Source of the DNA: Lacrimispora sphenoides
Lineage (GTDB): Bacteria > Bacillota > Clostridia > Lachnospirales > Lachnospiraceae
Reading direction: 5' to 3'
NCBI RefSeq assembly: GCF_900105215.1
Contig: NZ_FOIP01000001.1
Location: 1,820,001 to 1,884,000, forward strand
Length of the DNA: 64,000 bases
A program made the translations under genes and the position numbers. This document shows, one piece after another, positions 678 to 18,068 of the stretch. The notes beneath the pieces are model-generated. The model did not search any database and was not told where the DNA came from. It saw nothing but the letters and a program-made list of their open reading frames with translations. The stretch's first letter is position 1. The number at the start of each line of letters is the position of its first letter.

Positions 678-709
678 TTGACATTCCCCTATACAGGAAG
701 GATTATACT
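678..709 (+). promoter_or_regulatory. merR promoter with 20-bp spacer and dyad (MerR-type)
   Basis: The -35 TTGACA (678-683) and -10 TATACT (704-709) are separated by exactly 20 bp. The spacer holds a dyad, TTCC-N8-GGAA (684-699). An over-long spacer with a centred dyad is the hallmark of promoters activated by MerR-family proteins through DNA distortion. The promoter reads into the MerR-family gene at 796, so autoregulation is likely. The same layout recurs before the choline operon at 1764-1795. Confidence 0.8.
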
Positions 710-795
710 AAGTTAATCAGTACAAATAAACTCGTAATTGAAGAGGGAAACTATTAATGGATACATAGACAAGGCATATGCTTATGGGGGTTTCA

Positions 796-1629
796 ATGAA
801 AGAAAAAAAATTGTACTCAATTGGGGAAGTGAGTAAGATCTGCAACATTTCTATAAAAGCTTTGAGGTTTTATGATAAGATCGGGATCATATCTCCGGAT
901 ATGATCTGCAAGGAAAACAGCTACCGGTATTATAACAAAGAGTCGCTTTTGACTGTTCCGGTGGTGAAATACTACAAGCAAATGGGATTTAAACTGGAAG
1001 AGATGCAGGGGTTGGTCGAAGGAAATACTTATTATTACCTGGAACAGAATTTCCGGAACAAGATTGATCAGTTATGCCTTCAGGAGCAGCAGATCCATAA
1101 CAGCTATATTGCGGTTAAGGACTGGTATGAGCTGATACAGGAAGCCAAACTGGTGCTCCAGAATGATGTTCATGATGTTGCCGTAAAATATATACAACCG
1201 GCGACCTATTGCGGCATGGAGCAGGACTTTGACTACAATTACATGGAATCCATTATCAATATAGAATGGACCAATCACTTAGAGCAAGAAGAGAATGAGA
1301 TCACAGGACCGGTAATTTTAAAATTTGATTCATTTGAGGAAAAGATGGCAGGCAAATGCAGCCGCACCAGAATCATGCAGCAGGCCATTCATCCATGCAG
1401 GAACTGTTTGAACCGGCAGGTCTTTGGAGGTTTTATGGCTGCGTCGGTTTATCATATCGGAAAGCATGAAACGATTGATGAAGAATATGAGAAAATACTT
1501 AAATGGGCAGCTAAAAGGGGCTATAAGTGCGGGAAGGAAAGCTTCGAACGGTATGTGGTGGATTACTGGACCACCAGAAGCCGGGAGCAGTTTGTTTCAG
1601 AGATCATTGTTCCGATATACAGGGAATAA
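796..1629 (+). CDS. MerR-family transcriptional regulator
   Basis: A 277-residue regulator. An N-terminal MerR winged helix begins at about residue 5 (YSIGEVSKICNIS, then ALRFYDKIGI and SYRYY). A coiled-coil linker follows, and then a long C-terminal part of about 170 residues that resembles effector-binding MerR proteins. Several cysteines (for example HPCRNC, about residues 199-204) are visible. An ATG at 778 is in frame, but the ATG at 796 has a GGGGG ribosome binding site at good spacing, so I start there. It lies directly upstream of the choline microcompartment operon. Matching 20-bp-spacer promoters precede both it and that operon, so it is the probable choline-responsive activator. 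The ligand is inferred, not seen. Confidence 0.85.
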   Translation: MKEKKLYSIGEVSKICNISIKALRFYDKIGIISPDMICKENSYRYYNKESLLTVPVVKYYKQMGFKLEEMQGLVEGNTYYYLEQNFRNKIDQLCLQEQQIHNSYIAVKDWYELIQEAKLVLQNDVHDVAVKYIQPATYCGMEQDFDYNYMESIINIEWTNHLEQEENEITGPVILKFDSFEEKMAGKCSRTRIMQQAIHPCRNCLNRQVFGGFMAASVYHIGKHETIDEEYEKILKWAAKRGYKCGKESFERYVVDYWTTRSREQFVSEIIVPIYRE

Positions 1630-1654
1630 GGGAGCATGTTTTAGCGGTTGGCTT

Positions 1655-1703
1655 CCCTGGATACAGTATTCAGAAAGATGCTGTACCAGGGGGGCCCTTT
1701 TTT
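1655..1703 (+). terminator. Rho-independent terminator after merR
   Basis: CCCTGGATACAG pairs with CTGTACCAGGG (one bulged base) across a 14-nt loop, followed closely by a T-run. Confidence 0.75.
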
Positions 1704-1763
1704 GTTTTCCGGGCTGGTAGCGTTTCTCCCAATATTTGGAGCATAAAAAAGTTTAAAAACCTG

Positions 1764-1795
1764 TTGACATTTCCCCTAGGGGGAAGATTTATACT
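1764..1795 (+). promoter_or_regulatory. choline microcompartment operon promoter with MerR-type operator
   Basis: The -35 TTGACA (1764-1769) and -10 TATACT (1790-1795) are separated by exactly 20 bp. The spacer contains the perfect palindrome CCCCTAGGGG (1773-1782). It resembles the merR promoter at 678-709 in both hexamers, spacing and the TTCCCCTA half-site. Transcription would run through a roughly 150-nt leader into the first operon gene at 1951. Confidence 0.85.
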
Positions 1796-1950
1796 AAATG
1801 CATAGAAAAACACAAAGCGACTCCGTAAAATTAGTAACATTAACAGGCGTGATGTGTTTTCTAAACGTTTTCAGCTGAACGTGAAGAAAAAAGCAGAGAA
1901 ACATGCTAACTTGAATTTTGTGCAGCACCAATTGGGGAAGGAAAACTTAA

Positions 1951-2925
1951 ATGACGGAAGCACGAAAAAAATTTAAATCAATTGGCGTTACAACAGGCTT
2001 GATATCCGGTCTTATGTATGGGTTATATACCACATTCGTTTTGATCGCCGGTTATTACAAGCCTCTTGCCGGAGCGGTTGGGTTGTTTGCTGCTCCCTAT
2101 GTAACCTCGGGCCTGAATGATTTGTTTGCAGGCATCTGGCTGACCGCTTATAACGTAAAGACCGGAAGAATCCGGGAAATCGGAAGAAGCTTACGCCTGT
2201 TCCCGGGAAAAATCATTCTTATAGGCTCTCTGGTTGGCGGACCCATAGCAAGTGGAGCATACCTCATGGGACTTGCCATGGCAGGAGCTTACGCAATACC
2301 GATTTCCGCTATGTACATACTCTTTGGAGCATTGTTTGCAAGGATTTTCCTAAAGCAGAAAATCGTGCCGAGAGTAGGCATTGGAATGGTGATCTGTGTG
2401 GTTGGAGCGATTGTCATCAACTGGGTAAAGCCGGAAGGCAGCACTAATTTTACCCTTGGGATCATCTGCGCGTTTGTTGCGGCCATCGGCTGGGCTTTGG
2501 AAGGTGTATTCGCGGCTTACGGAAGTGCCATGCTGGATACCGATGTGGTAATCAACATACGCCAGCTATTATCCGGTATTGTGGATCTGATTGTTATTTT
2601 GCCGATGGTGGGAGGCATGGGACTTTTAAAAGGCACCCTGTTCTCATTACCGCCGGTTATGTGGCTGCTGGTTTCCGGACTTTGCGCTGCAATATCCTAT
2701 TTGTGCTGGTATAAATCCAACAGTACAATAGGCTGCGCCATGGGAATGTCACTGAATATTACCTACGCGTTCTGGGGTGTGCTGTTTTGTATCCTGTTTT
2801 TAAAACAGCCATTAACCCCGACTATTATCATTGGTTCCATTATTATCATTTTGGGCGCGGTTTTAGTATCCGTAGACCCATTTGAATTGCTCATGAAAAA
2901 GGAGGAAGTAAACAATGAAATTTGA
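1951..2925 (+). CDS. DMT-family (EamA-like) membrane transporter, copy 1
   Basis: A 324-residue, very hydrophobic protein with about ten predicted membrane helices, arranged as two EamA-like halves of the drug/metabolite transporter superfamily. It is the first gene of the choline operon, and its end overlaps the first shell gene by 11 bp. A close paralogue lies at 3205, so a transporter-shell-transporter order opens the operon. No BCCT, ABC or SMR choline transporter is present here. I infer that the pair moves choline in or a product such as trimethylamine or ethanol out. The substrate cannot be read from sequence. Confidence 0.85.
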
Positions 2926-3205
2926 TGCATTAGGAATGATTGAGACAAAGGGCCTGATCGGTTCTATCGAAGCTGCAGATGCAATGGTAAAGGCAGCAAA
3001 TGTTACTCTGGTTGGAAAAGAATTTGTCGGCGGCGGTCTTGTTACCATTATGGTAAGAGGTGATGTCGGTGCGGTAAAGGCAGCGACCGATGCAGGTGCG
3101 GCTGCAGCCCAGAGAGTTGGAGAACTGGTTTCCGTTCACGTAATTCCTCGTCCTCACGCTGAGGTTGAAACCATTCTTCCGAAAGAGAAAAAGGAGTGTA
3201 AATAA
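2915..3205 (+). CDS. BMC-H microcompartment shell protein
   Basis: A 96-residue single-domain BMC (Pfam 00936-type) protein forming hexameric shell tiles. The canonical start [12 protein letters not shown] is followed by the pore loop FVGGGLVT and the end [12 protein letters not shown]. It overlaps the upstream transporter, and its stop shares one base with the next start, so translation is probably coupled. It is almost identical to the operon's last gene (17784-18068). It would be a main small-pore facet tile. Confidence 0.95.
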
Positions 3206-4203
3206 TGAGTAACCAAGGAATGACATCTGCATCCGCGGATGCAAAAATGGCGGCAGTCAATAAAAAATTCAGGACAACCGGTATGACAACCGGTGCATTA
3301 TCCGGACTGACATACGGGATCTATACCGTACTTGTACTGGTGGCCGGATATTATGAACCTCTTGTCAGTGCGGCAGGACTTTTAGCAGGACCATATGTGT
3401 GCTCCGGCTTAAACGATCTTTTCGCAGGAATCTGGCTGACTGCTTATAATGCAAAAAGCGGCCGTATCCGCGAGATGGGAAGGAGCCTTAATACATTCCC
3501 TGGCAAAATGATTGTCATCGGATCCATTCTCGGAGGCCCCATTGCCAATGGCGCTTATCTGGTAGGTCTTGCCATGGCCGGTGCCTATGCGATTCCGATT
3601 TCCGCATTATGCAGTTTATTCGGAGCAATTTTTGCATGGATCTTCTTAAAACAGAAAATCACCAAGAGAGTTATGCTGGGTATGCTGGTATGTGTGGCCG
3701 GTGCCATCATCATCAACTGGACGAAGCCGGAAGGCAGCGATAACTTTACACTGGGAATTATCTTCTCCTTTGTCGCAGCAATCTGCTGGGCCCTGGAAGG
3801 TGTATTTGCCACTTACGGCGGAGCCATGATCGATACCGATGTTGCAGTAAACTTACGCCAGCTGATTTCCGGTGTTTTGGATTTATTCGTGATCCTTCCT
3901 ATCGTTGGAGGCCTGGGACTTCTTGGCGGAACACTTATGGCAGGAATACCAGCCATCTGGCTTGTAGTATCCGGTTTAAGTGCCGCAGTGTCTTTCCTTT
4001 GCTGGTATAAGAGTAATTCCACCGTTGGATGTGCTGTGGGAATGTCCTTAAATGTAACCTATGCGTTCTGGGGAGTTTTCTTCTGTATCCTGTTTTTGGG
4101 ACAGGCAGTGACACCTACGATTGTAATCGGTTCTTTTGTAATCGTATTTGGTGCGATTCTGGTAACCATGAATCCACTGGATTTATTCAGGAAAGGGGAA
4201 TAA
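3205..4203 (+). CDS. DMT-family (EamA-like) membrane transporter, copy 2
   Basis: A 332-residue paralogue of the transporter at 1951, with long identical stretches (for example [14 protein letters not shown] and [12 protein letters not shown]). It has a slightly longer hydrophilic N-terminus. The start ATG overlaps the shell gene's stop (TAATG). About ten membrane helices are predicted. The tandem copies arose by duplication and may form a heteromer or handle two substrates. Placement inside a choline-lyase operon points to choline or product transport; this is inference. Confidence 0.85.
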   Translation: MSNQGMTSASADAKMAAVNKKFRTTGMTTGALSGLTYGIYTVLVLVAGYYEPLVSAAGLLAGPYVCSGLNDLFAGIWLTAYNAKSGRIREMGRSLNTFPGKMIVIGSILGGPIANGAYLVGLAMAGAYAIPISALCSLFGAIFAWIFLKQKITKRVMLGMLVCVAGAIIINWTKPEGSDNFTLGIIFSFVAAICWALEGVFATYGGAMIDTDVAVNLRQLISGVLDLFVILPIVGGLGLLGGTLMAGIPAIWLVVSGLSAAVSFLCWYKSNSTVGCAVGMSLNVTYAFWGVFFCILFLGQAVTPTIVIGSFVIVFGAILVTMNPLDLFRKGE

Positions 4204-4207
4204 GGAA

Positions 4208-4489
4208 ATGTTATTACCTGCAAGAACAGCGGTTTTAAATTATTTATATGGAGTAGAAAATGCGGATATTGCCCAGATCATGGAGGCTTTAAAACCGCTT
4301 TACGGCGGAGAGCGCCAGTTTACCAAAGATCGTTACATGGATCATGTCATGTCTTTGGAAGCAAACGGTATGGTCAATTTATGCAGCTATGACCTGGATC
4401 AGAACGGGGAGCTGCGCATGCGCTACGAAATCAATGATGACGGAAGAAGCGCAGTTGACAAATATGTGGATAAGAAATACCGCAAATAG
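4208..4489 (+). CDS. small conserved hypothetical protein, possible winged helix
   Basis: A 93-residue soluble protein of unknown function, 4 bp after the transporter gene. Its pattern of short helices and a charged turn (YDLDQNGELRMRYEINDDG) resembles a small winged-helix domain, but I see no confident family motif. There is no signal peptide or membrane segment. Its place between transporter and shell genes suggests a role tied to the compartment or its regulation. Confidence 0.7.
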   Translation: MLLPARTAVLNYLYGVENADIAQIMEALKPLYGGERQFTKDRYMDHVMSLEANGMVNLCSYDLDQNGELRMRYEINDDGRSAVDKYVDKKYRK

Positions 4490-5132: not shown

Positions 5133-5162
5133 CAGGCATCCCGGATGAAGGGAGAATCGAAA

Positions 5163-6659
5163 ATGAATTTTGTAGATAAAGACCTGCTCTCCATACAGGA
5201 GGCAAGGATTTTAATGGAAAGTGCACGGGAAGCCAGAGAGACCATGCTTACCTTCCCCCAGGAAAAGCTTGATCTCATTACGGGCACCCTGGCTGCGGCA
5301 GCAAAGGAACTGGCGGAGGAACTGGCGGTCATGTCCGCGGAAGAAACCGGATATGGACGTTTCCAGGATAAGTACGTGAAGAACACCTTTGTCTGCAATT
5401 TCCTGCCGGAACGTCTAAAAGATATGAGGTGTGTCGGCATCTTAGAACAAGACCCAAGGCTTAAAACCATGGCAGTTGGCGTTCCGGTGGGTGTAATTGC
5501 CGCCCTGACGCCGGCAGTGAGCCCGGTTTCTACCGCGATTTATAACATTATAATTGCTGTTAAGTCCGGCAATCCCATCGTGATCGCACCTCATGAAAGG
5601 GCAAGGAAGGTAACAGGCAGGCTGATTGACAGGCTGATGGAAGCAGGAAAATGCTGCGGGCTTCCGGAAGGAGCCATCGGGTATCTAAAGACAGTGACAA
5701 GGGCAGGGACTCTGGAGCTGATCCGCCACCCGGCAGCAGCCATGGTAGTCAACACCGGAGTGCCGGAGCTGTGCCGCGAGGCAGCAGAAAGCGGAAAACC
5801 TTATATCTACGGCGGTACTGGAAACGGACCGGTCTTTGTGGAACGGACTGCCGATGTAAGACAGGCGGTAGAGGATATCATTACAAGCCGTACCTTTGAT
5901 TACGGGATCGTGTCTGCAGCCGAGCAGTATATGGTGGTAGACAGCCTCATCGCAGCAGAAGTAAAAGCCGAAATGATTAAGAACGGCGCCTACTTTATGA
6001 ATGGGGAAGAGGAGAAAAAGTTAATTGACCTCCTTTGCCTGGAAAGCGGGAAGGCGGATACGGAAACCATGGGAAGACCTGCAGTAGAACTTGCGGTCAG
6101 AGCGGGATTTACGGTGCCTGATTCCACAACAGTACTGGTTTCCGAACAGAAGTATATTTCTGACAGGAATCCGTTTGCAAAAGAGCTTCTGTGTCCTGTA
6201 CTGGCTTATTACATCGAAAATGACTGGATGCACGCCTGCGAGAAATGCATGAGTCTTCTGGTTAACGAGAGCCATGGACACACCCTGGTAATCCACTCCA
6301 GGGATGAAGAAGTAATACGCCAGTTCGCCTTAAAGAAGCCGGTAGGCAGAATCCTTGTCAATACACCTGCCACTCTGGGCAGCATGGGAGCGACCACGAA
6401 CCTGTTTCCGGCCATGACCCTTGGAAGTATTACGACAGGCGCCGGAATTACGGCTGACAACGTTTCACCCATGAATTTCATCTATATCCGGAACGTGGGA
6501 TATGGAGTCCGGGATGCGAAAGAATTCCTTGGGGTTACAGGAAACGTTTCGGGCGGACATGAAAAAGCTCCTGAGACAAAAGGAGGAAGCGAAGATGCAA
6601 AAGCGCTCCTGAAACAGATTTTAGAAACCTTGTCCAGGGAGCTTGATGATAAGTGTTGA
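5163..6659 (+). CDS. aldehyde dehydrogenase-like protein lacking the catalytic cysteine
   Basis: A 498-residue protein of the CoA-acylating aldehyde dehydrogenase (EutE/PduP) family. The N-terminus (LLSIQEARILMESAREA) looks like a microcompartment encapsulation helix, as in the active homologue at 15534. The active-site segment here reads TFDYGIVSAAEQ. In the homologue it reads TFDYGTICASEQ, so the nucleophile Cys251 is Ser251. The codon is plainly TCT. This copy is therefore probably inactive as an acylating dehydrogenase. A structural, cofactor-binding or esterase-like role is possible. I start at ATG 5163, which has a GGGAG site, rather than at the in-frame ATG 5145. Confidence 0.85.
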   Translation: MNFVDKDLLSIQEARILMESAREARETMLTFPQEKLDLITGTLAAAAKELAEELAVMSAEETGYGRFQDKYVKNTFVCNFLPERLKDMRCVGILEQDPRLKTMAVGVPVGVIAALTPAVSPVSTAIYNIIIAVKSGNPIVIAPHERARKVTGRLIDRLMEAGKCCGLPEGAIGYLKTVTRAGTLELIRHPAAAMVVNTGVPELCREAAESGKPYIYGGTGNGPVFVERTADVRQAVEDIITSRTFDYGIVSAAEQYMVVDSLIAAEVKAEMIKNGAYFMNGEEEKKLIDLLCLESGKADTETMGRPAVELAVRAGFTVPDSTTVLVSEQKYISDRNPFAKELLCPVLAYYIENDWMHACEKCMSLLVNESHGHTLVIHSRDEEVIRQFALKKPVGRILVNTPATLGSMGATTNLFPAMTLGSITTGAGITADNVSPMNFIYIRNVGYGVRDAKEFLGVTGNVSGGHEKAPETKGGSEDAKALLKQILETLSRELDDKC

Positions 6660-6726: not shown

Positions 6727-6762
6727 TTAGGTGGCAAATAATTGAAAGAGAGGGAAACCAGA

Positions 6763-9306
6763 TTGGATATTCGTGAATTTTCAAATAAATTTGTAGAAGC
6801 AACGAAGAACATGACACCAGAAGAAAGAGCTTCTCTGATGAAAATGTTTGAAACTGTTTCCGATGAAATCAACAAAAAAGAGCCTGCTTCCCAGGCGGCA
6901 GTAAGCTTTGAGGGAGGAACGGAGTTACCGGATGGCATTACTCCCAGACTCCAGAATTTAAAGGAAAATTATTTAAAGCATAAACCATCAATTACAACAT
7001 ACCGTGCACGGGCCATTACCAAGATCGCTAAAGAAAACCCTGGTATGCCAAAGATCATGCTTCGTGCAAAATGTTTCCGTTACTGCTGCGAGACAGCTCC
7101 CCTTGTTATTCAGGACAACGAGCTCATCGTAGGTGCTCCCTGCGGCGCTCCCCGTGCAGGTGCATTCTCTCCGGATATCGCATGGAGATGGATGGTAGAT
7201 GAGATCGATACCATCGGAACACGTCCTCAGGATCCATTCTATATTTCCGAAGAAGACAAGAAAATCATGAAAGAAGAGCTGTTCCCATACTGGTCCGGCA
7301 AATCGGTTGATGAGTATTGTGAAGATCAGTACCGTGAAGCAGGCGTTTGGGAATTATCCGGAGAATCCTTTGTATCCGACTGCTCCTACCATGCCATCAA
7401 CGGCGGCGGAGACTCAAACCCCGGCTATGATGTAATCCTTATGAAGAAGGGCATGCTGGATATTCAGCAGGAAGCCAAGGATCATTTAAAAGAACTGGAT
7501 TATGAGAATCCTGATGATATTGAGAAGATTTATTTCTACAAATCCATTATCGATACTACAGAAGGCGTTATGATCTACGCAAAGAGACTTTCTGAGTATG
7601 CAGCAGAGCTTGCAGCCAAGGAAACCAATCCAAAGCGTAAGGAAGAACTGTTAAAGATCTCTGAAGTAAATGCTTACGTTCCTGCTCACAAGCCAAGAAC
7701 CTTCTGGGAGGCAATCCAGGCAGTATGGACCATCGAATCCCTGCTCGTAGTGGAAGAGAACCAGACCGGTATGTCCATTGGACGTGTGGATCAGTATATG
7801 TATCCATTCTACAAAGATGATATCGAATCCGGACGTATGAATGATTACCAGGCATTTGAGCTTGCCGGCTGCATGCTGATCAAGATGTCTGAGATGATGT
7901 GGATCACCAGCGAAGGCGGTTCCAAATTCTTTGCAGGCTACCAGCCATTCGTAAACATGTGCGTAGGCGGTGTGACCCGCAGCGGACACGATGCCACCAA
8001 TGATTTAACTTACTTACTTATGGATGCAGTTCGTCATGTAAAGATTTACCAGCCATCACTTGCATGCCGTATCCACAACAAGTCCCCGAAAAAGTACATG
8101 AAAAAGATCGTAGATGTGGTTCGTTCCGGTATGGGATTCCCAGCCTGCCATTTTGACGATGCCCACATCAAGATGATGCTTGCAAAAGGCGTATCCATTG
8201 AGGATGCACGTGATTACTGCCTGATGGGCTGTGTAGAGCCTCAGAAGTCAGGACGTCTTTATCAGTGGACATCCACTGCTTATACCCAGTGGCCGATCTG
8301 TATCGAGCTTGTCTTAAACAACGGAGCTCCTTTATGGTATGGCAAGCAGGTTTGCCCGGATATGGGTGACTTAAGCAACTTCAAAACTTACGAAGAGTTT
8401 GAAGCAGCTGTAAAAGAAGAAATCAAATATATTACAAAGTGGACCGATGTTGCTACTGTAATTTCCCAGCGCGTTCACAGAGACTTAGCTCCAAAGCCGC
8501 TCATGTCCATCATGTACGAAGGCTGTATGGAAAAAGCAAAGGATGTATCCGCAGGCGGTGCGATGTACAACTTCGGACCTGGTGTGGTATGGTCCGGACT
8601 TGCTACCTATGCAGACTCCATGGCGGCGATCAAGAAGCTTGTATTCGAAGAGAAAAAATATACATTAGAGCAGATAAACGAAGCGTTAAAGGCTGACTTT
8701 GTGGGATATGACCAGATTCGTACCGATTGCCTTAATGCTCCAAAATACGGAAATGATGATGATTATGCAGATTTAATTGCAGCTGACCTGGTTGACTTTA
8801 CAGAGCATGAACACAGAAAATATAAGACCTTATACTCTGTTTTAAGCCATGGTACCTTATCCATTTCCAATAATACCCCATTTGGACAGCTGACAGGCGC
8901 TTCTGCCAACGGCCGTAATGCATGGCTGCCTCTTTCCGACGGAATCAGCCCAACCCAGGGTGCAGACTTCAAGGGCCCGACTGCAATCATCAAGTCCGTA
9001 TCCAAGATGTCCAATGACAGCATGAACATCGGTATGGTTCATAACTTTAAGATCATGGCCGGTCTTTTGGATACTCAGGAAGGCGAAGAAAGCCTTATCA
9101 CCCTTCTTCGTACGGCCTGTATGTTAGGAAACGGCGAGATGCAGTTCAACTACCTGGATAACAATACCTTAATTGAGGCTCAGAAGCATCCGGAGCTGTA
9201 CCGCGACTTAATCGTCCGCGTTGCCGGCTATAGCGCATTCTTCGTAGAGTTATGCAAGGATGTACAGGATGAAATCATAAGCAGAACCATGCTGACACAT
9301 TTCTAA
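6763..9306 (+). CDS. cutC: choline trimethylamine-lyase (glycyl radical enzyme)
   Basis: An 847-residue glycyl radical enzyme that cleaves choline to trimethylamine and acetaldehyde inside the microcompartment. The active site GCVEPQ gives Cys490 and Glu492, and the radical glycine is Gly822 in RVAGYS. With a one-residue offset from Desulfovibrio alaskensis CutC, the choline-pocket residues are all present: Tyr209, Asp217, Phe396, Thr503 and Tyr507. This separates it from glycerol/propanediol dehydratases and pyruvate formate-lyase. I start at TTG 6763, which has a GAGAGGGA site and gives the usual DIREFSNKF start; another TTG at 6742 is in frame. It is followed 22 bp later by its activase. 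Confidence 0.97.
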
Positions 9307-9328
9307 AAGAAAGTTGAGATCAATCACA

Positions 9329-10282
9329 ATGGACCATGGAACGACAGGAGAGATTGAGCGTAAAGCGTTTATCTTTAACGTGCAGAAGTACAACATGTAT
9401 GACGGGCCGGGAATCAGAACCCTGGTATTCTTTAAAGGCTGTCCGCTCCGGTGTAAATGGTGCTCCAATCCAGAAGGAATGGTGCGGAAATTCCAGGTGA
9501 TGTATAAGCAAAATTCTTGTGTAAACTGCGGGGCGTGCGCTGATGTGTGCCCCGTAGGAATCCATGTGATATCCAAAGAGACGGGAAAACATGAAATCCA
9601 GCGGGAAAAGGATTGCATCGGATGCATGAAATGCAAGAATGTCTGCCCCAATGCAGCGCTTACCATTGCCGGAGAAGTTAAAACCATTTCAGAACTGCTT
9701 AAAATCGTGGAAGAGGATTCTGCCTTTTATGATATTTCAGGCGGCGGCGTAACTCTTGGCGGCGGTGAAGTGACTGCCCAGCCGGAAGCAGCTTTAAATC
9801 TGTTAATGGCCTGTAAGCAGGAAGGGATCAATACAGCAATTGAGACCTGCGGTTATACAAGTACGGAAACGATTTTAAAAATTGCGGAGTATGTGGACTT
9901 ATTCCTGTTTGATATCAAACATATGGATCCTGTCCGCCACAATGAACTGGTAGGTGTGAACAACGAACAGATCCTTACCAATTTAAAGGAACTGCTCCAC
10001 CACCGTTTCAATGTGAAAGTCCGCATGCCTATGTTAAAGGGGATCAATGACAGCCGGGAAGAGATCGATGAAGTCATTAAATTCTTAATGCCCTTCCGTG
10101 ACTATAAAAATTTTAAGGGAATTGATTTACTTCCGTATCATAAGCTGGGCGTTAACAAATACAATCAGCTTGATATGAAATATCCCATTGAAGGGGATCC
10201 AAGCTTAAGCCCGGAGGATTTAGACCGGATTGAAGACTGGATGAAGGAATATCAATTTCCGGTTACTGTAGTAAAGCACTAA
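9329..10282 (+). CDS. cutD: choline TMA-lyase activating enzyme (radical SAM)
   Basis: A 317-residue radical SAM activase that abstracts hydrogen from Gly822 of CutC. The SAM-cluster motif is CPLRCKWC at about residues 38-45. An inserted ferredoxin-like domain carries two further [4Fe-4S] motifs (CVNCGACADVC and CIGCMKCKNVC). The GGGE motif (LGGGEVT) follows. This is the standard glycyl-radical-activase architecture. The ATG at 9329 is chosen over an in-frame TTG at 9314; the ribosome binding site is weak in either case. Expression is presumably coupled to cutC. Confidence 0.96.
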   Translation: MDHGTTGEIERKAFIFNVQKYNMYDGPGIRTLVFFKGCPLRCKWCSNPEGMVRKFQVMYKQNSCVNCGACADVCPVGIHVISKETGKHEIQREKDCIGCMKCKNVCPNAALTIAGEVKTISELLKIVEEDSAFYDISGGGVTLGGGEVTAQPEAALNLLMACKQEGINTAIETCGYTSTETILKIAEYVDLFLFDIKHMDPVRHNELVGVNNEQILTNLKELLHHRFNVKVRMPMLKGINDSREEIDEVIKFLMPFRDYKNFKGIDLLPYHKLGVNKYNQLDMKYPIEGDPSLSPEDLDRIEDWMKEYQFPVTVVKH

Positions 10283-10298: not shown

Positions 10299-10637
10299 AT
10301 GATTGAGATGCAGCGTGTCATAGAGGAATCCGTTCCTGGTAAACAGGTGACCATCGCCCATGTGATCGCATCTCCCATTCCGGAGGTATATGAGTGCCTT
10401 GGCATCGATGAAATGGGAGCCATCGGAATTCTCACCCTGTCCCCTTTTGAAACCTCTATCATTGCGGCGGATATTGCAGCAAAGGCAGCAGATGTGCAGG
10501 TGGGCTTCTTAGACCGCTTCACAGGCTCTGTGATCATTGCCGGCGATGTGGACAGTGTGGAAACCGCTTTGACTGCGGTATGCGATACCTTAAAACGCGG
10601 GCTGGGTTATATGGTGCCTGCGGTAACCAAAACATGA
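10299..10637 (+). CDS. EutS/PduU-like circularly permuted BMC shell protein
   Basis: A 112-residue BMC protein with the N-terminal strand segment (RVIEESVPGKQVTIAHVI) typical of EutS/PduU, which forms a beta-barrel cap over the hexamer pore. The loop FLDRFTGSVII matches the EutS style. It overlaps the next gene by 4 bp (ATGA). Role: a shell tile with a capped pore, perhaps anchoring cargo or accessory proteins. Confidence 0.88.
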   Translation: MIEMQRVIEESVPGKQVTIAHVIASPIPEVYECLGIDEMGAIGILTLSPFETSIIAADIAAKAADVQVGFLDRFTGSVIIAGDVDSVETALTAVCDTLKRGLGYMVPAVTKT

Positions 10638-11065
10638 GAAAGAAAAGAATCATGATCATCGGCCCCGGCGGCAGCGGAAAGACTTCCCTGGCTCATGTCA
10701 TAAACGGTTTTATCGGTCCGGCCAGAAGAACCCAGAACATGGTGTATGGGGAAAAAACCTTAGATGTGCCGGGGGTTTACTTAGAAAGTCCCTGGATGCA
10801 TAAGCATATCATTGCGGCGGCACAGGATGCCTCCCATGTACTGATGCTGGTAGACCAGTCCTCATGCAGGGAAAGTTACCCGCCTGGATTTGCAAAAGCG
10901 TTCCGGGTTCCCGTCATCGGTGTGATTACGGGAAGCGGAGAAAAACCGGAACATGACGGCTGGTGTATCCGTCAGTTAAAAAAGGCAGGGGTTCGGGAGC
11001 CCTATTATCATATTAATCTGTCTGAACGGACAGGCCTTCAGGAATTAATGGAGGCGTTAAAATAA
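10634..11065 (+). CDS. EutP/PduV-like small GTPase-fold protein
   Basis: A 143-residue P-loop protein with Walker A GPGGSGKTS near its N-terminus and the short EutP/PduV layout. Relatives in the ethanolamine and propanediol systems have been linked to acetate kinase activity or to compartment positioning. Which of these applies here is open. The ATG start overlaps the EutS-like stop. An earlier ATG in another context is ignored because it would place the P-loop unusually far in. Confidence 0.83.
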   Translation: MRKKRIMIIGPGGSGKTSLAHVINGFIGPARRTQNMVYGEKTLDVPGVYLESPWMHKHIIAAAQDASHVLMLVDQSSCRESYPPGFAKAFRVPVIGVITGSGEKPEHDGWCIRQLKKAGVREPYYHINLSERTGLQELMEALK

Positions 11066-11087
11066 AAGGAAAGGAGGGAAATGTAAC

Positions 11088-12224
11088 GTGGAGCAATTTG
11101 TAATGAACACAAAAGTATATATGGGATCTTCCTGTCTGGATAAGTTAAAGGATCTTCCTGTAACAAAGGCTTATATTATCTGTGACCCCTTTATGGCCCA
11201 GTCCGGAAAGGTGAACTGGATTACAGAGCTTTTGCAGGAGAAGGGGAGCAGCTATGAAGTATTTTCTGAGGTAGTACCCGATCCGACCATTGAAGTCGTT
11301 TCAAAAGCCATAGGCGGAATGAAGTGTTTTGGTCCGGATGCAGTAATCGCCCTTGGCGGCGGCTCTGCCATTGATACGGCAAAGGCGTCTAGCCACATCT
11401 ACAGTCAGATGGGAAATGAAAGACTGTACTTAATCGCGGTTCCAACAACCAGCGGCACCGGTAGTGAAGTAACTAATTTTTCTGTTATATCCGACCCACA
11501 GGCCCAGGCGAAATATCCGCTGCGTTCCGATAGTATGGTGCCGGATGCAGCATTTCTTGATCCCCGCTTTACGGTGTCGGTTCCGCCTCACATTACGGCA
11601 GATACGGGAATGGATGTGTTAACCCATGCCCTGGAAGCCTATGTTTCAACCAATGCAGGTGATTTTACTGATGCCTGCGCGGAAAAAGCGGTGAGACTGG
11701 TGTGGAACTACCTGACACGTACCGTAGAAGAAGGAAGCGACATGGAAGCCAGAACTCACATGCACAATGCTTCCTGTCTGGCTGGAGTTGCGTTTAACGG
11801 AGCTTCCTTAGGGCTTTGCCACAGCATGGCTCATGCCCTGGGAGCGCGCTTTCACATTCCGCACGGAAGAAGCAATGCGATCCTGCTTCCTCATGTCATC
11901 AGCTACAACGCCGGTCTGGAAGACGCTGGCGAACAGAAAGCCTGCGGCAGGTATGTGGCAATTGCCAATATGCTTGGAATCGCAGCCGGAACAGATAAGG
12001 CCACGGTACACGGCCTGGTGCGTCACATCAAAAATCTGATGAACAAGATCAAAATACCGCAGCAGATTACAGACTTAAAGATTGATAAAGACGAATTTGA
12101 GCAGGCCATACGGGAAATGGCGGAAAAAGCCCTGGCTGATAACTGCACATTGACCAACCCAAGGGTGCCTACGGTAGAAGAGATTGAAACCATCTATCGG
12201 AAACTGTGTAAGGGGGGCTATTAA
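11088..12224 (+). CDS. cutO: iron-containing alcohol dehydrogenase of the choline compartment
   Basis: A 378-residue Fe-type (group III) alcohol dehydrogenase. It has the nucleotide-binding GGGSAID motif near residues 84-90 and metal-ligand histidines in LCHSMAHALG and HIPHG. It would reduce acetaldehyde to ethanol and regenerate NAD+ for the acylating dehydrogenase within the shell. The GTG start follows GGAGG. The stop overlaps the next start by one base. Orthologues in cut loci are called CutO. Confidence 0.9.
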   Translation: MEQFVMNTKVYMGSSCLDKLKDLPVTKAYIICDPFMAQSGKVNWITELLQEKGSSYEVFSEVVPDPTIEVVSKAIGGMKCFGPDAVIALGGGSAIDTAKASSHIYSQMGNERLYLIAVPTTSGTGSEVTNFSVISDPQAQAKYPLRSDSMVPDAAFLDPRFTVSVPPHITADTGMDVLTHALEAYVSTNAGDFTDACAEKAVRLVWNYLTRTVEEGSDMEARTHMHNASCLAGVAFNGASLGLCHSMAHALGARFHIPHGRSNAILLPHVISYNAGLEDAGEQKACGRYVAIANMLGIAAGTDKATVHGLVRHIKNLMNKIKIPQQITDLKIDKDEFEQAIREMAEKALADNCTLTNPRVPTVEEIETIYRKLCKGGY

Positions 12225-12838
12225 TGAAATTCATCACAGAAGATGATTTGAGGATTTTATTCAGAAGAGAACCCTTTACTTCTTATGATCTCCCTGCGGG
12301 AACCAGACTGACACCCGGAGCGCGCCAATTCCTGGTGGATAAGAAGATTCCCATAAGTGACGATCCCATGATGGTAAAACGAAAAAATGAGAAACCTGCA
12401 GAGAAAAAAGAAGAAGCACCGGAAAAAGAGATCTGCCGGGATCGTTTCTTGTTAAAAAAGAAAACGCTTCAGGCTCAGTTTCTGGAAACAGGTCTTGAAC
12501 TGTTAAATCGGGATGTATTGCTAGCAGAGCAGATATTTGCCCTGGAGCGTAAACTTTCTGATCTGGGGAAAGACGGCCGGGAAGTGGAATTTGGATTTGA
12601 GCCCTGCACCGGATTTCATAAGGAAAACTTTAACAAGCCTTCCGACGATTGCTTTGAGATCACAGGTTTTCATGCACAGTCAGAAAAGGGAAAGGAAATC
12701 GTTCTTCTGCACCGCCTGCGCTGCAGCGTAAGAGAGCTGGCAGCGGAAACAGAGAATGCAGGTCTTAACCCGTTCATCAACCGCTTATCACAGATGATAT
12801 GTCTGGAATATGGAGGAAAAACATGTCAAAGGAAGTAA
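12224..12838 (+). CDS. EutT-like protein without the adenosyltransferase metal motif
   Basis: A 204-residue protein whose first 50 residues (FITEDDLRILFR, LTPGARQFLVD) match the N-terminus of EutT-type cobalamin adenosyltransferases. It is shorter than EutT, and I do not find the HX11CCXXC metal site. The pathway here is B12-independent, so adenosyltransferase activity is not expected. A charged linker rich in Lys and Glu lies at about residues 50-70. It overlaps eutJ by 16 bp. Function unknown; probably a structural or assembly factor kept in glycyl-radical compartments. Confidence 0.75.
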   Translation: MKFITEDDLRILFRREPFTSYDLPAGTRLTPGARQFLVDKKIPISDDPMMVKRKNEKPAEKKEEAPEKEICRDRFLLKKKTLQAQFLETGLELLNRDVLLAEQIFALERKLSDLGKDGREVEFGFEPCTGFHKENFNKPSDDCFEITGFHAQSEKGKEIVLLHRLRCSVRELAAETENAGLNPFINRLSQMICLEYGGKTCQRK

Positions 12839-13668
12839 TAACATTTGATGGCTGCAATGAGCTGGTGAGCCAGTTTGAAGCAGTTGTTAAGCAGCCCGTT
12901 AAGGGAAGCTCCTCTGTTTACTATACCGGAGTCGATCTGGGAACGGCGTGTGTGGTACTGGCTGTTTTAGATGAGAACTACAAACCTGTGGCAGGCGCTT
13001 ACCGGTATGCGGATGTGGTCCGGGATGGAATGGTCGTGGATTACATCGGTGCGATCCGGATTGTTCGGGAGCTTAAGGAAGAACTGGAGGAAAAGCTGGG
13101 CACAGAATTGATTTATTCGGCTGCAGCCATTCCTCCGGGCACCGATTCCCTGGATGGCGGAGCGATTAAAAACGTGGTTCAGGGAGCTGGATTTGAAATA
13201 ACGGCCCTTCTCGATGAGCCTACGGCGGCAAACGCAGTTTTAAAAATTAAGAATGGTGCAGTCGTGGATATCGGAGGCGGCACCACCGGAATCTCCATTT
13301 TAAAAGATGGAAAGGTGGTGTATGTAGCGGATGAACCAACAGGAGGAACTCATTTTTCCCTGGTGGTCTCCGGTGCTTATCAAATGTCCTTTCAGGAGGC
13401 AGAGGTTTATAAGAGGAAAGAAGAACACCATAAAGAACTGCTGCCGGTTTTAAAGCCGGTTGTGGAGAAGGTGGCTTCCATCATAAAACGCCATATTGAA
13501 GGACACGATGTTCAGGAAATCTACTTGGTAGGCGGAACCTGCTGCCTGACTGGGATTGAAGCAATCATTGAAAAACAGACGGGAATCAGGACGAGAAAGC
13601 CTGAGAACCCAATGTTTGTAACTCCTCTTGGAATCGCATTTTCCTGTACGCAGGAAGAGCTGGCATAA
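12823..13668 (+). CDS. eutJ: EutJ-like actin/Hsp70-fold chaperone
   Basis: A 281-residue protein of the ASKHA fold. The phosphate loop region YTGVDLGTACVVLAV and the second motif VVDIGGGTTGISIL are clear, followed by LVGGTCCLTGIE. EutJ proteins are thought to assist folding or reactivation of compartment enzymes. The ATG follows GGAGG inside the end of the EutT-like gene. Confidence 0.88.
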   Translation: MSKEVITFDGCNELVSQFEAVVKQPVKGSSSVYYTGVDLGTACVVLAVLDENYKPVAGAYRYADVVRDGMVVDYIGAIRIVRELKEELEEKLGTELIYSAAAIPPGTDSLDGGAIKNVVQGAGFEITALLDEPTAANAVLKIKNGAVVDIGGGTTGISILKDGKVVYVADEPTGGTHFSLVVSGAYQMSFQEAEVYKRKEEHHKELLPVLKPVVEKVASIIKRHIEGHDVQEIYLVGGTCCLTGIEAIIEKQTGIRTRKPENPMFVTPLGIAFSCTQEELA

Positions 13669-13682
13669 AGGATGTGGACAAT

Positions 13683-13988
13683 ATGGAATACCGTATAATT
13701 AAATCACCGTCACAGGGAACCATGGATATCTTAAACCGCAGGAAGGGCTCCGGCACTTCCTCGCCCATAGGACCAGTGGATGCAGTGGGGCTGGTACAGG
13801 GCAGAATCATCGAAATGGTTTGCGCCGCAGATGTGGCAGAAAAAGCAGTAGGTGTTACGGTAGAAGACATCAGAGGAAGCTGCCCGCAGAACATGATCAT
13901 GCTTGCGATTTTTGGAGATACGGCATCGGTAGAGGCAGCTATGGATGAAATTAAGCAAAGAGAGAAGAGAGGGGTGGAAGAATGGTAG
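13683..13988 (+). CDS. BMC shell protein with a cysteine in the pore loop (GrpU-like)
   Basis: A 101-residue BMC protein with an N-terminal extension (RIIKSPSQGTMDILNRR) before the BMC core GPVDAVGLVQG. Aligning it with the tile at 2915 puts GSCPQN where FVGGGL forms the pore loop, so six cysteines would ring the hexamer pore. GrpU, a shell protein of glycyl-radical compartments, binds an Fe-S cluster at its pore; a similar role here is an inference. The ATG at 13683 follows AAAGGA. The stop overlaps eutN by 7 bp. Confidence 0.8.
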   Translation: MEYRIIKSPSQGTMDILNRRKGSGTSSPIGPVDAVGLVQGRIIEMVCAADVAEKAVGVTVEDIRGSCPQNMIMLAIFGDTASVEAAMDEIKQREKRGVEEW

Positions 13989-14245
13989 CGGCCAGATTGA
14001 TTGATAACATATGGGCCACCAGAAAAGCGGAGTCCTTAAATGGGTATAAATTTATGCTTGCCGAGATCATTGGAGGCACACGGGAAGGCGAGCGGCTGAT
14101 TGTAGCAGATATCATCAGCGCGGGAATCGGTGACCGTGTGATCATTTCCACCGGCTCTTCTGCCAGGCGGATGCTGGGAAGCGATGAGATTCCAGTCGAT
14201 GCCGTAGTAATTGGGATCATTGATGAAGATTGCCAATTTATATAG
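13982..14245 (+). CDS. eutN: EutN/CcmL-family pentameric vertex protein
   Basis: An 87-residue BMC-P protein. It starts MVAARLIDNIWATRK, continues with KFMLAEIIGG and IGDRVIISTGSSAR, and ends VDAVVIGIID, as in EutN. Pentamers close the twelve vertices of the shell. It is the only BMC-P gene in the operon. The start overlaps the upstream BMC gene. Confidence 0.95.
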   Translation: MVAARLIDNIWATRKAESLNGYKFMLAEIIGGTREGERLIVADIISAGIGDRVIISTGSSARRMLGSDEIPVDAVVIGIIDEDCQFI

Positions 14246-14260
14246 AAGGGAAGTGATCAT

Positions 14261-14890
14261 ATGAAGCAGTTGATTTGTGCAAAAGATGTAGAAAAGTTAA
14301 ATGCTGAGGGAAAAAAGGTATTTTACGTGGAAACCGGAAGTATCATCACTCCGTCTGCTAAGGATGCAGCAGATTCATTCGGTATCAAATTCTGCGATAA
14401 GCCAGAAGAGCAGACACAGGCTCCGGCTGCTTTCGCAGCCATGGATATGGACAGCGAGAAAATTTATATGGTACTGAAGACTTTAATGGAAAAGGGTTTT
14501 TTAAATGATATTTTAAAACCCTACGAGTCTGAAAGCCATGGAAACGGTCTCAAAGTGGTTCGTGGAAGTTCTGTGAAAATGGATGTATTTGATACAGGAG
14601 ATCCATCTGTCAAAGCTTACTACCAGGAGCTGGTAAGCAAAGAGGAATCCCATATCAGTGCAGGTTTCCTTGTGATCGACCATTCCAGCTTTGAATGGGA
14701 ATTGACCTATGAAGAGATCGACTATGTAATCGAAGGAACCTTAACCGTTACCATTGACGGAAAGACCTATACGGCAAAAGCCGGAGATGTGCTCTTTGTA
14801 CCGTCAGGCTCCAAGGTAATCTGGGGTTCCCCAGATAAAGCAAGAGTATTTTACGCAACGTATCCGGCAAACTGGGCTGATTTGGTTTAA
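14261..14890 (+). CDS. eutQ: EutQ-like cupin protein
   Basis: A 209-residue protein. The N-terminal segment (about residues 1-50) resembles EutQ, and a C-terminal cupin barrel (YVIEGTLTVTIDGKTY, then AGDVLFVPSGS) spans about residues 120-205. EutQ has been reported to act in acetate kinase activity and compartment assembly in Salmonella. Which applies here is unknown. The ATG at 14261 follows GAAGTGATC. Confidence 0.87.
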   Translation: MKQLICAKDVEKLNAEGKKVFYVETGSIITPSAKDAADSFGIKFCDKPEEQTQAPAAFAAMDMDSEKIYMVLKTLMEKGFLNDILKPYESESHGNGLKVVRGSSVKMDVFDTGDPSVKAYYQELVSKEESHISAGFLVIDHSSFEWELTYEEIDYVIEGTLTVTIDGKTYTAKAGDVLFVPSGSKVIWGSPDKARVFYATYPANWADLV

Positions 14891-14901
14891 GGAGGTAAAC
14901 A

Positions 14902-15507
14902 ATGCAGGCACTTGGCTTTATAGAAACAAAAGGCGTGCTGGTGGCTATTGAGGCGGCAGATGCCATGTTAAAGGCGGCAGACGTGTCTCTTCTGGAAAAG
15001 ACCAAAGTCGGCGGAGGTCTCGTCGCTGTTACGGTGACCGGCGATGTGGCGGCAGTAAAGGCAGCGGTGGACGCCGGAGCAGCAGCGGTAGAACGCATAA
15101 ACGATGCTGCTTTAGTAACACGCCATGTTATCGCCAGGCCTCATGATGAGCTGACGGCTGTAATCGGCGGAGGTACTCCTGACGAACCGGAAAAAGAACC
15201 AGTTCCGGAAACCGCAGAAGAACCAGCAGCTGAGGTACCTGAAGAGATACCGGCAGAAGAACCAGTCGAAGAATCTTCCAATGAACCGGAAACGGTGGAT
15301 ACCATAAAGCGGGAAACCGTGGACTTGTGGATGAAGCAGGACGGTCTGGAAGAGACCATGAAGATACTTGAAGATATGAAGGTAACAGAGCTTAGGACAC
15401 TTGCCAGAGAATATCCGGAATTCAGTATAGCTGGACGAGAGATTTCAAAAGCAAATAAAACCCTGCTGCTGGAAGAATTCGGGAAGTATTATGGACAGAA
15501 TGATTAA
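14902..15507 (+). CDS. BMC-H shell protein with acidic linker and C-terminal helical domain
   Basis: A 201-residue protein. A standard BMC domain (residues 1-95, pore loop VGGGLVA) is followed by a Pro/Glu-rich linker of about 35 residues. A 60-residue C-terminal part ends with a Rho-N/SAP-like helical motif (MKVTELRTLAREYP, ISKANKTLLLEEFG). Extensions on BMC tiles face one side of the shell and can recruit cargo or cell components. The binding partner here is unknown. Confidence 0.88.
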   Translation: MQALGFIETKGVLVAIEAADAMLKAADVSLLEKTKVGGGLVAVTVTGDVAAVKAAVDAGAAAVERINDAALVTRHVIARPHDELTAVIGGGTPDEPEKEPVPETAEEPAAEVPEEIPAEEPVEESSNEPETVDTIKRETVDLWMKQDGLEETMKILEDMKVTELRTLAREYPEFSIAGREISKANKTLLLEEFGKYYGQND

Positions 15508-15533
15508 TATTTTTAGAAAGGGAGAACGGGAAC

Positions 15534-17081
15534 ATGGAAAATTTTGATTTTGATTTACGTTCCATCCAGGAAGCAAGGGATTTAGCCAGATGCGGTGAAG
15601 CAGCCGCAAAAAAAATTGCCGGATTTACGGCAGAACAAATTGACACCATTCTTAAGAGTATGGCAAAGGCAGGAGAGGAACACGCTCTTTGCCTGGCAGA
15701 GATGGCTGTAGAAGAGACAGGCTTTGGAAAGGTCATGGACAAGGCATATAAGAACCATGCTGCTTCCACTCTTTTATATGAAGAAATAAAAGATATGAAG
15801 ACAAGAGGAATCCTTGCAGAGGATACCGTGAATAAGACCATTGATGTGGCAGAACCGGTAGGACTTGTAATGGGTATCGTTCCATCTACAAATCCAACCT
15901 CAACTGTATTTTTTAAATCCATGATCGCCATTAAATCCGGAAACGCAATCGTATTTTCTCCCCATCCTTCTGCTGCAAAATGCACTCTGAAGGCTGCGGA
16001 GGTTATGAGGGACGCTGCAATTGCAGCAGGAGCACCGGAGGGAATCATCGGCTGTGTATCCATGCCTTCCATGGGGTCTACCAATGAACTGATGAAGTGT
16101 AAGGAAGTCTCCGTTATCATTGCAACCGGCGGCCCGGGTATGGTAAAAGCTGCATACAGCGCAGGAAAGCCAGCCATCGGCGTAGGTGCAGGAAACTCAC
16201 CGGCTTACATAGAAAAGACGGCAGATGTGAAGCAGGCAGTAAAGACAATCCTTGCCAGCAAGACGTTTGACTATGGTACCATCTGTGCTTCCGAGCAGTC
16301 CATTATTTGTGAGGAGAGCAATCACGCAGAAGTTGTAGCAGAGTTAAAAAGCCAGGGCGGTTACTTTATGACAAAGGAAGAAACCGACAAAGTCTGTGCC
16401 CTGTTATTTAAAAACGGCCATAACATGAATGCCAAATTTGTTGGCCGTTCTCCTCAGGTGATTGCCCAGGCAGCCGGAATCCAGATTCCGGAAGGGGCCA
16501 AGGTCCTCATCGGAAAACAGGAAGGTGTCGGAGAGGGATATCCATTATCCTACGAAAAGCTGACAACTGTACTTGGTTTCTACACAGTAAAGAACTGGGA
16601 AGAGGCCTGCGGCTTAAGCATCCGCCTTTTACAGAACGGAATCGGACATACCATGAGCATTCATACCCAGGACAGGGATATGGTTCTTAAGTTCGCTGCA
16701 AAGCCTGCTTCCAGAATCCTTGTAAATACAGGCGGAAGCCAGGGTGGAACCGGAATCAGTACAGGCCTTCCGATTTCCTTTACATTAGGATGCGGAACCT
16801 GCGGAGGAAGCTCTGTTTCCGAAAACGTGAGCCCGAAACATCTCCTTAATGTGAAAAAGGTTGCTTTTGGTATTAAAGATTGCTCCACTATCGCAGCAGA
16901 TGATCCAACCTTTACCTGGAAAGACAAAACCCAGGATGCTTCCTTTAGCCCTGCTGATTTCGTAGCTTCTTTTGATAAAAAAGAAGATGTGGCCTCTTCT
17001 GCCTGCCAGGGAGGAAACGATGACAATGAGAAGCTGGCAGCTCTTGTAAAAGAGATTGTACTTGCCATGAAAGGCCAGTAA
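15534..17081 (+). CDS. cutF: CoA-acylating acetaldehyde dehydrogenase
   Basis: A 515-residue aldehyde dehydrogenase of the EutE/PduP type converting acetaldehyde, CoA and NAD+ to acetyl-CoA. Catalytic Cys251 lies in FDYGTICASEQ. The N-terminus (DLRSIQEARDLARCGEAAAKK) is an amphipathic encapsulation helix, and the C-terminal helix (NEKLAALVKEIVLAMK) may be a second one. It is paralogous to the Cys-less protein at 5163. PduL follows 25 bp downstream and would use its acetyl-CoA. Orthologues in cut loci are called CutF. Confidence 0.93.
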   Translation: MENFDFDLRSIQEARDLARCGEAAAKKIAGFTAEQIDTILKSMAKAGEEHALCLAEMAVEETGFGKVMDKAYKNHAASTLLYEEIKDMKTRGILAEDTVNKTIDVAEPVGLVMGIVPSTNPTSTVFFKSMIAIKSGNAIVFSPHPSAAKCTLKAAEVMRDAAIAAGAPEGIIGCVSMPSMGSTNELMKCKEVSVIIATGGPGMVKAAYSAGKPAIGVGAGNSPAYIEKTADVKQAVKTILASKTFDYGTICASEQSIICEESNHAEVVAELKSQGGYFMTKEETDKVCALLFKNGHNMNAKFVGRSPQVIAQAAGIQIPEGAKVLIGKQEGVGEGYPLSYEKLTTVLGFYTVKNWEEACGLSIRLLQNGIGHTMSIHTQDRDMVLKFAAKPASRILVNTGGSQGGTGISTGLPISFTLGCGTCGGSSVSENVSPKHLLNVKKVAFGIKDCSTIAADDPTFTWKDKTQDASFSPADFVASFDKKEDVASSACQGGNDDNEKLAALVKEIVLAMKGQ

Positions 17082-17105
17082 AAACAGCAAGGAAGGAGAA
17101 CAGGA

Positions 17106-17741
17106 ATGGATAAGTATGAAGCGGTAATCAAACTCTTAATGGAAGCCGTGAAAGCGGAATCCGGAACAGATGAGTTTCGAATACCAGTTGGCGTTTCCAA
17201 CCGCCATGTACATTTGTCCCAGGAAGACTTGGATGCTCTTTTCGGTAAGGGATACGAACTGACCAAGATGAAGGAGTTATCCCAGCCGGGTCAGTATGCA
17301 TGCAAGGAAACGGTTACCGTATGCGGCCCTAAGGGAGCCATTGAGAAGGTCCGTATATTAGGTCCGGTCAGAAAACAGACTCAGGTCGAGGTTCTGGCAG
17401 CAGACTGTTTTAAGCTTGGAAAGAAATCTGAGCCTAAAATGTCCGGTGAATTAACCGGAACGCCAGGGATCACCCTGGTGGGACCAAAGGGTTCCGTTCA
17501 AACAAAAGAGGGCTTAATCATCGCCCAGAGACACATTCATATGACTCCTCAGGATGCCTTGAAGTTCGGCGTTCATGACGGTCAGACAGTTAGTATTCAG
17601 ACAGAGGGGATCCGCGGCGGTATTTTTCATCATACGGCAATCCGCGTAACCGAAACATCAAGCCTGGAATGCCATCTTGATACGGAAGAAGCAAATGCCA
17701 TGGGACTTGGCAGCTCTTCTGGCGTAACCATTGTAAAATAA
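17106..17741 (+). CDS. pduL: PduL-type phosphotransacylase
   Basis: A 211-residue PduL phosphate acyltransferase converting acetyl-CoA to acetyl phosphate and recycling CoA inside the shell. Zn-ligand histidine clusters are visible: NRHVHLSQEDL (about residue 30), AQRHIHMTPQD (about 140) and FHHTAIRVT. The N-terminal 20 residues form an amphipathic helix of encapsulation type. The family is unrelated to Pta. The start follows GGAAGGAGAA. Confidence 0.95.
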   Translation: MDKYEAVIKLLMEAVKAESGTDEFRIPVGVSNRHVHLSQEDLDALFGKGYELTKMKELSQPGQYACKETVTVCGPKGAIEKVRILGPVRKQTQVEVLAADCFKLGKKSEPKMSGELTGTPGITLVGPKGSVQTKEGLIIAQRHIHMTPQDALKFGVHDGQTVSIQTEGIRGGIFHHTAIRVTETSSLECHLDTEEANAMGLGSSSGVTIVK

Positions 17742-17783
17742 GTGAACCATTAAAAATTAATTATAAATCAGGAGGATTTAAAA

Positions 17784-18068
17784 ATGAAATATGATGCATT
17801 AGGAATGATTGAAACAAAAGGTTTAATTGGATCCGTTGAAGCAGCAGATGCTATGGTCAAAGCAGCAAACGTTACCCTGATCGGTAAAGAATTTGTAGGC
17901 GGCGGTCTTGTTACTGTTATGGTAAGAGGCGATGTAGGTGCTGTTAAGGCAGCTACCGATGCAGGTGCAGCAGCAGCTCAGCGTGTTGGTGAGCTTGTAT
18001 CTGTACATGTAATCCCACGTCCACATGCAGAAGTTGAAACAATTCTTCCAGGTACAAAAGAAGCATAA
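17784..18068 (+). CDS. BMC-H microcompartment shell protein
   Basis: A 94-residue BMC-H tile, nearly identical to the one at 2915 except at the C-terminal tail (ILPGTKEA against [10 protein letters not shown]) and a few conservative changes. It has a strong ribosome binding site (AGGAGG) and a slightly longer leader (42 bp), so it may be highly translated as the bulk shell tile. It is the last gene before the operon terminator. Confidence 0.95.

Follow-up and report, generated by a model that had tools for sequence, protein, structure and literature searches.

The genome of Lacrimispora sphenoides (RefSeq assembly GCF_900105215.1, contig NZ_FOIP01000001.1) contains, in a stretch of 64,000 nucleotides (positions 1,820,001 to 1,884,000; hereafter the window, in whose own numbering all positions are given), a gene for a MerR-type regulator followed by a gene run for a GRM1-type choline microcompartment of about 16 kb (1951 to 18068). 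All features discussed here lie on the forward strand. The run, which we treat as a presumed choline or cut operon, encodes the choline trimethylamine-lyase CutC, and cleavage of choline by this enzyme gives trimethylamine, the precursor of trimethylamine N-oxide, which has been linked to heart disease. The merR gene and the operon are each preceded by a promoter with a stretched spacer, and it is the relationship between these two promoters, the regulator and the choline pathway with which we are concerned.

Two promoters with a 20-bp spacer

The merR promoter (678..709, with TTGACA at 678-683 and TATACT at 704-709) and the choline-operon promoter (1764..1795, with TTGACA at 1764-1769 and TATACT at 1790-1795) are built alike: between consensus hexamers, each spacer holds a dyad of the TTCCCC/GGGGAA type, which in the former (TTCCCCTATACAGGAA) has six of eight positions paired and in the latter (TTTCCCCTAGGGGGAA) seven of eight, as counted by eye. 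The initial annotation of this DNA, made from the letters alone, had described two TTGACA-N20-TATACT promoters with spacer dyads, and this description is confirmed at both places. A palindromic putative operator inside a promoter spacer of 19-20 bp, the arrangement expected of a MerR-family target, can thus be read from the sequence of both promoters. Throughout the 5.93-Mb genome, a degenerate pattern of hexamers plus dyad finds two sites at up to three mismatches, both of them at the choline locus, and the reversed pattern finds none. The spacing of the hexamers alone was dropped as evidence: TTGACN-N19..21-TATACT, with 14 genomic sites, is no commoner than its reverse, with 17.

A scan of related genomes for the promoter pair beside this MerR had also been proposed in the initial annotation, and the pair proves to be kept throughout the 25 genomes of the genus that were sampled, the window's own genome among them, with a spacer of exactly 20 bp in each case. 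An alignment of 12 loci of the genus shows no variation in 27 of the 32 merR-promoter columns, and the flanks have diverged. The two matching operator-bearing promoters support probable autoregulation of merR. In genome G023 (L028/L031) the merR frame is broken and both promoters are retained, which reflects either a sequencing error or a real loss. The dyad of the choline promoter was flagged as terminator-like by a simple terminator scan, and an exact search for the 32-mer promoters in viral contigs gave no match.

The regulator and its gene

The regulator gene (796..1629) encodes 277 amino acids, comprising a MerR helix-turn-helix (HTH) domain, a long helix and a GyrI-like (BmrR-type) ligand domain. 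Its start is probably the ATG at 796 rather than that at 778, because in one relative a stop codon separates the two; in the merR of G014 an in-frame stop falls upstream of the likely ATG, and this gene therefore reads as intact. The HTH domain scores above the curated cut-offs of PF13411 (43 bits, cut-off 21.6) and PF00376 (41.7 bits, cut-off 28.2), and the GyrI-like domain above that of PF06445 (40.3 bits, cut-off 26). An AlphaFold2 (AF2) monomer model, with a mean predicted local distance difference test score (pLDDT) of 83.8 and a predicted template modelling score (pTM) of 0.66, is matched best by EcmrR and by BmrR structures, among them a complex of BmrR with acetylcholine, so that both the domain content and the predicted BmrR-like overall fold point to a protein of the BmrR type.

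Within the ligand domain, E251 aligns with the position of BmrR Glu253 (in a weak sequence alignment at about 20% identity), a residue with a role in drug binding; titles of BmrR structures in the Protein Data Bank (PDB) mention E253 mutants. An acidic residue is thus present at this position, and it is a Glu in 78 of 81 MerR proteins compared. Y219, Y231, W258 and E269 are invariant in all 81, and H220 is found in 80. Judging from this conservation, the set Y219/H220/Y231/E251/W258/E269 matches the expectation for a pocket that takes up a small quaternary amine.

Between merR and the choline operon, a terminator-like hairpin with a T run is predicted from folding at 1650..1703 (the segment 1625-1712 folds at -35.4 kcal/mol, z -3.77); the simple terminator scan did not list this hairpin. 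Perfect or nearly perfect palindromes just 3' of merR, for example AAAAGGTTCCCCTATAGGGGAACCTTTT, were seen among the matches listed in L106, L110, L111, L049, L050 and L058; they look like terminators, but their stem resembles the operator core.

Occurrence together with CutC

Among 397 genomes of the family to which the window belongs, CutC was found above its cut-off in seven, one of them the window's own, and the MerR (E <= 1e-50) in the same seven; a further 12 genomes contain glycyl radical enzymes that score lower and stay under the cut-off, and none of these has the MerR. In a sample of 398 genomes of the phylum, CutC occurs in 14 and the MerR (E <= 1e-40) in three, all among those 14 and again including the own genome. 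Going out from the regulator, a profile of 26 orthologs was used to select relatives, of which the best 80 of 144 were fetched from genome contigs; these 80 come from Lachnospiraceae, other clostridia, Enterococcaceae, Lactobacillaceae and Desulfobacterota. For 64 of the 80 MerR loci, the fetched stretch includes CutC. As to the other 16, ten belong to genomes with CutC above the cut-off elsewhere and two to genomes with partial matches only (711 and 560 bits). A search of plasmid proteins found relatives of the MerR (44% identity) only in five records of Enterococcus raffinosus, on plasmids of about 1 Mb.

The operator in other bacteria

The 64 loci L048-L111 were taken as lying outside Lacrimispora. 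Allowing up to six mismatches to the operator of the genus, they contain 56 sites, compared with 3.4 expected under a first-order Markov model, and these sites are spread over 31 of the 64 loci. Fifty of the outside loci have a choline-locus transporter or shell gene within 4 kb of merR. For these 50, the spacer of the best promoter candidate measures 20 bp at 29 loci, 19 bp at 11 and some other length at three, with seven loci giving no candidate. In 310 random control windows of the same loci, a 19/20-bp spacer was best in 21 (20 bp in nine, 19 bp in 12), and the 74 candidates found in all had spacers spread over 15-24 bp. Seven of the 11 loci with a 19-bp spacer belong, by record name, to Desulfobacterota. 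A rough consensus, drawn from 17 hand-picked operators with a 20-bp spacing, is TTGAC-a-TTCC-n-C-n-n-A-n-GGG-n-A-n-G-n3-TATacT.

The order around a Halodesulfovibrio assembly was surveyed in addition. The MerR is present there in 13 of 120 genomes (16 loci), and in stretches of 20 kb the operator was found, with up to five mismatches, at 13 of the 16 loci, mostly before the transporter or divergent cut genes; these stretches contain 21 operator sites, compared with two in one Markov replicate. A narrower view of about 1.5 kb around merR shows the operator in only three of the 16. Several Desulfobacterota-type loci (L082, L087, L089, L095, L171 and L172) have a pair of operators, of which one precedes the transporter and the other, with a weak -10, precedes shell or cut genes.

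The choline operon and its leader

The gene run opens with an EamA/DMT transporter (1951..2925, PF00892), from its context a candidate choline importer, followed by a bacterial microcompartment (BMC) shell protein (2915..3205, PF00936), a second EamA/DMT transporter (3205..4203, PF00892) and a PadR-like winged-helix protein of 93 amino acids predicted from an AF2 model (4208..4489). A first aldehyde dehydrogenase (5145..6659; TIGR02518 at 479 bits, below the cut-off of 620) precedes cutC (6742..9306; TIGR04394 at 1689 bits, cut-off 1050) and cutD, the gene of the CutC activase (9314..10282; TIGR04395 at 569 bits, cut-off 360). The remaining open reading frames of GRM1 type (10299..18068), named partly from Pfam and NCBIfam matches and otherwise by reading, comprise shell proteins, an alcohol dehydrogenase and EutJ-, EutQ- and PduL-like proteins; among them are a PF06249 match at 14261-14890 and a second acetaldehyde dehydrogenase at 15534-17081 (TIGR02518 at 746 bits). 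Inspected by eye, the first aldehyde dehydrogenase carries Ser where the catalytic Cys is normally found (IVSAAEQ versus TICASEQ in the second copy). GRM1 loci, according to the available part of Axen et al. (PMC4207490), contain one aldehyde dehydrogenase copy lacking the catalytic Cys. With CutC and CutD above their cut-offs, BMC shell proteins and this Cys-less aldehyde dehydrogenase, the locus conforms to the GRM1 type with type I CutC.

At about the predicted transcript start, the leader of the operon carries a conserved hairpin (1803..1863), in which three pairs show compensatory changes among 14 sequences. Over its ten pairs, 96.4% of cells are paired, versus 37.6-63.6% in slid versions of the hairpin; in a shuffle control, three measures were reached by none of 500 shuffles and exceeded those of the slid versions as well. 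Pairs with changes on both sides were, in the same control, reached by 167 of 500 shuffles, and further pair types by 491 of 500. Folded as a single sequence, the leader is unexceptional (z -0.61). When a model of the hairpin was run on the genome, a single copy came up; of the 51 sources searched with it, the only ones outside Lacrimispora with clear matches were L048-L050, all three of which were in its training set. A second leader hairpin, ACGTTTTCAGCTGAACGT (1865..1882), is nearly invariant, so that it offers little evidence of covariation, and the leader also carries a conserved UUAGUAAYAUU loop motif. No Rfam match was found in the leader when positions 1-19000 of the window were scanned.

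The model of the PadR-like protein reaches a pLDDT of 95.1 and resembles best the folds of PadR/LmrR type, and the PadR Pfam match falls below its cut-off. Relatives of this protein occur in 60 of the 80 MerR loci, in two phyla. As modelled, it is a possible second regulator.

Proposed mechanism and alternatives

Proteins of the MerR family switch on promoters whose spacers are 19-20 bp long by reducing the effective separation of the two boxes, as stated in the accessible part of PMC1526738. This mode of activation and the conservation of the pocket together lead us to read the locus as a choline-responsive, self-activating switch: merR very probably encodes a dedicated BmrR-type activator of its own gene and of the cut operon, with choline as the presumed inducer. 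In the mechanism which we infer, a MerR dimer would sit on the dyad inside each of the two 20-bp promoters, that of merR and that of the cut operon. In the absence of ligand, both promoters would be weak, because -35 and -10 would be out of phase; choline, or a close quaternary amine, would bind to the aromatic and acidic pocket of the C-terminal domain, and the ligand-bound dimer would twist the spacer and bring -35 and -10 into register. RNA polymerase would then start transcription of merR and of the cut operon of about 16 kb some seven bases past 709 and 1795, respectively, the second promoter being made necessary by the terminator-like hairpin 3' of merR. The initial annotation had likewise spoken of a MerR activation signature and a sensor of choline or a related compound; the MerR-type activation architecture, self-regulation and the tie to choline degradation are supported, and choline itself is the presumed ligand.

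Several observations speak against so simple a picture. In the phylum sample, 11 of the 14 CutC genomes are without this MerR; the MerR therefore goes with CutC but CutC is often controlled otherwise, and this regulator is one of several control types for the enzyme. Conversely, four of the 80 MerR genomes have neither CutC above the cut-off nor a clear fragment of it, and these are possibly incomplete assemblies. Outside the genus, 33 of the 64 loci have no site at the limit of six mismatches, and ten of the 50 loci with a nearby choline gene have no 19/20-bp best candidate; eight of these ten are Lactobacillales, in which, by sequence, the operator seems to have drifted. The control windows used for comparison with these 50 loci are random stretches and mostly coding, and three of the 16 loci of the Halodesulfovibrio order lack the operator. 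The 11 MerR-less CutC loci show no promoter-like operator (a single match with six mismatches lies inside the cutC coding region), and in 63 windows 5' of cut genes of MerR-less loci a 19/20-bp candidate was best in three, none with the operator; at the same threshold, only two of six MerR-bearing loci fetched alongside show a promoter-like operator, and the MerR-less control is therefore weak by itself. The CutC of the MerR-less loci is 66-67% identical to that of the window in nine cases and 81% in two. Finally, the window protein stays below the equivalog cut-off (450 bits) of the NCBIfam family NF053782, which is discussed below.

The regulator might sense another cation, such as betaine, carnitine, trimethylamine or a multidrug-type compound, in which case the choline operon would be one output and the EamA proteins exporters. 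The closest solved relatives, BmrR and EcmrR, are multidrug-type sensors, and in the portion of Axen et al. at hand (PMC4207490) one GRM1 transporter is termed an MDR (multidrug resistance) efflux transporter. Against this, the coincidence of MerR and CutC in the same seven of 397 genomes and the restriction of the operators, genome-wide, to the choline locus point to the choline pathway, and so tight a tracking of CutC would not be expected of a multidrug regulator; we regard this explanation as quite unlikely. Still less likely, and indeed very improbable, is that the MerR mainly represses both promoters and that another system activates the operon. Pfam and promoter data do not reveal whether the protein activates or represses, repressors are known among MerR proteins, and the PadR-like protein is encoded within the operon; yet 19/20-bp spacers are the signature of MerR-family activation (PMC1526738, accessible part), near-consensus hexamers fit promoters which need untwisting, and NF053782 carries the name of an activator. 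Chance, or shared ancestry of the promoter sequence without regulatory meaning, could account for the long-spacer hexamers taken alone, but has a negligible probability given that the dyad-bearing sites are only two in the genome and persist in two phyla while their flanks diverge, and that the 11 MerR-less CutC loci do not show the operator as a promoter.

A wider proposal is that one operator code, TTGAC-n-TTCCnCnnAnGGGnA at 19/20-bp spacing, read by a single MerR lineage, governs the choline microcompartments of Bacillota and Desulfobacterota, and that the lineage of the window adds a layer of leader hairpin and PadR-like protein, giving a two-step choline switch. In this full form we consider the proposal rather doubtful. 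A switch with such a DNA code would allow predictions, for gut and environmental bacteria alike, of which ones activate the pathway, and the code would separate this type of control from the two-component and PocR types. It could further be used for building choline reporters, and the natural ligand of a BmrR-type regulator would become directly testable.

Comparison with known systems

The initial annotation was wrong in one respect: it knew of no MerR-family control described for cut operons, and the NCBIfam family NF053782 (ChlnTransRegdde3219) bears the very name 'choline utilization transcriptional activator'. The window protein matches it at 348.9 bits (2.1e-104) over residues 7-282 of a 283-amino-acid reading, that is, over its full length, and shares the linkage to cut genes; the cut-off was passed by three of ten relatives tested (L082, L095 and L071). 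The name of the family probably refers to Dde_3291 of D. alaskensis G20, with digits seemingly swapped. This MerR-like factor is said to have been described by Kuehl and colleagues in 2014 as a choline-dependent activator. Choline fitness experiments of Kuehl et al. 2014 are cited in the accessible part of PMC4215793. In contrast to the window, where merR has its own 20-bp promoter 5' of the operon, merR in Desulfobacterota is frequently found together with the transporter gene or oriented divergently from it.

BmrR of Bacillus subtilis, which regulates a drug transporter, resembles the window protein in the combination of HTH and GyrI-like domains, in the predicted overall fold and in the Glu253 position, and its scaffold can hold a choline ester, going by the title of structure 3q5s. 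The two proteins differ in that they are only about 20% identical and that the window MerR stands beside a catabolic microcompartment. With the metal regulators of the family (MerR, ZntR, CueR, CadR), the window shares the palindrome in a 19/20-bp spacer and, as for MerR itself, probable control of the own gene (PMC1526738, accessible part), whereas its C-terminal domain is GyrI-like and without a metal site, and its operator reads TTCCnC..GGGnA.

Among choline loci, the GRM1 operon of C. ljungdahlii is similar in having choline-induced genes, but the regulators listed there are a histidine kinase and a response regulator, with promoters predicted to be of the sigma54 type (PMC12016505, in part). 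According to the available part of the C. indolis genome paper (PMC4149025), the grp-BMC locus is headed by a COG0789 regulator, and Axen et al. note, in the part at hand, that GRM1 loci include 'a predicted transcription factor' and that some of them have PocR-type proteins (PMC4207490). A literature search, which rested mostly on titles and excerpts, yielded no description of the operator reported here. The type of regulator is therefore not new, as MerR-type regulators are already known for choline clusters; the operator common to two phyla, together with the 19/20-bp rule, may be.
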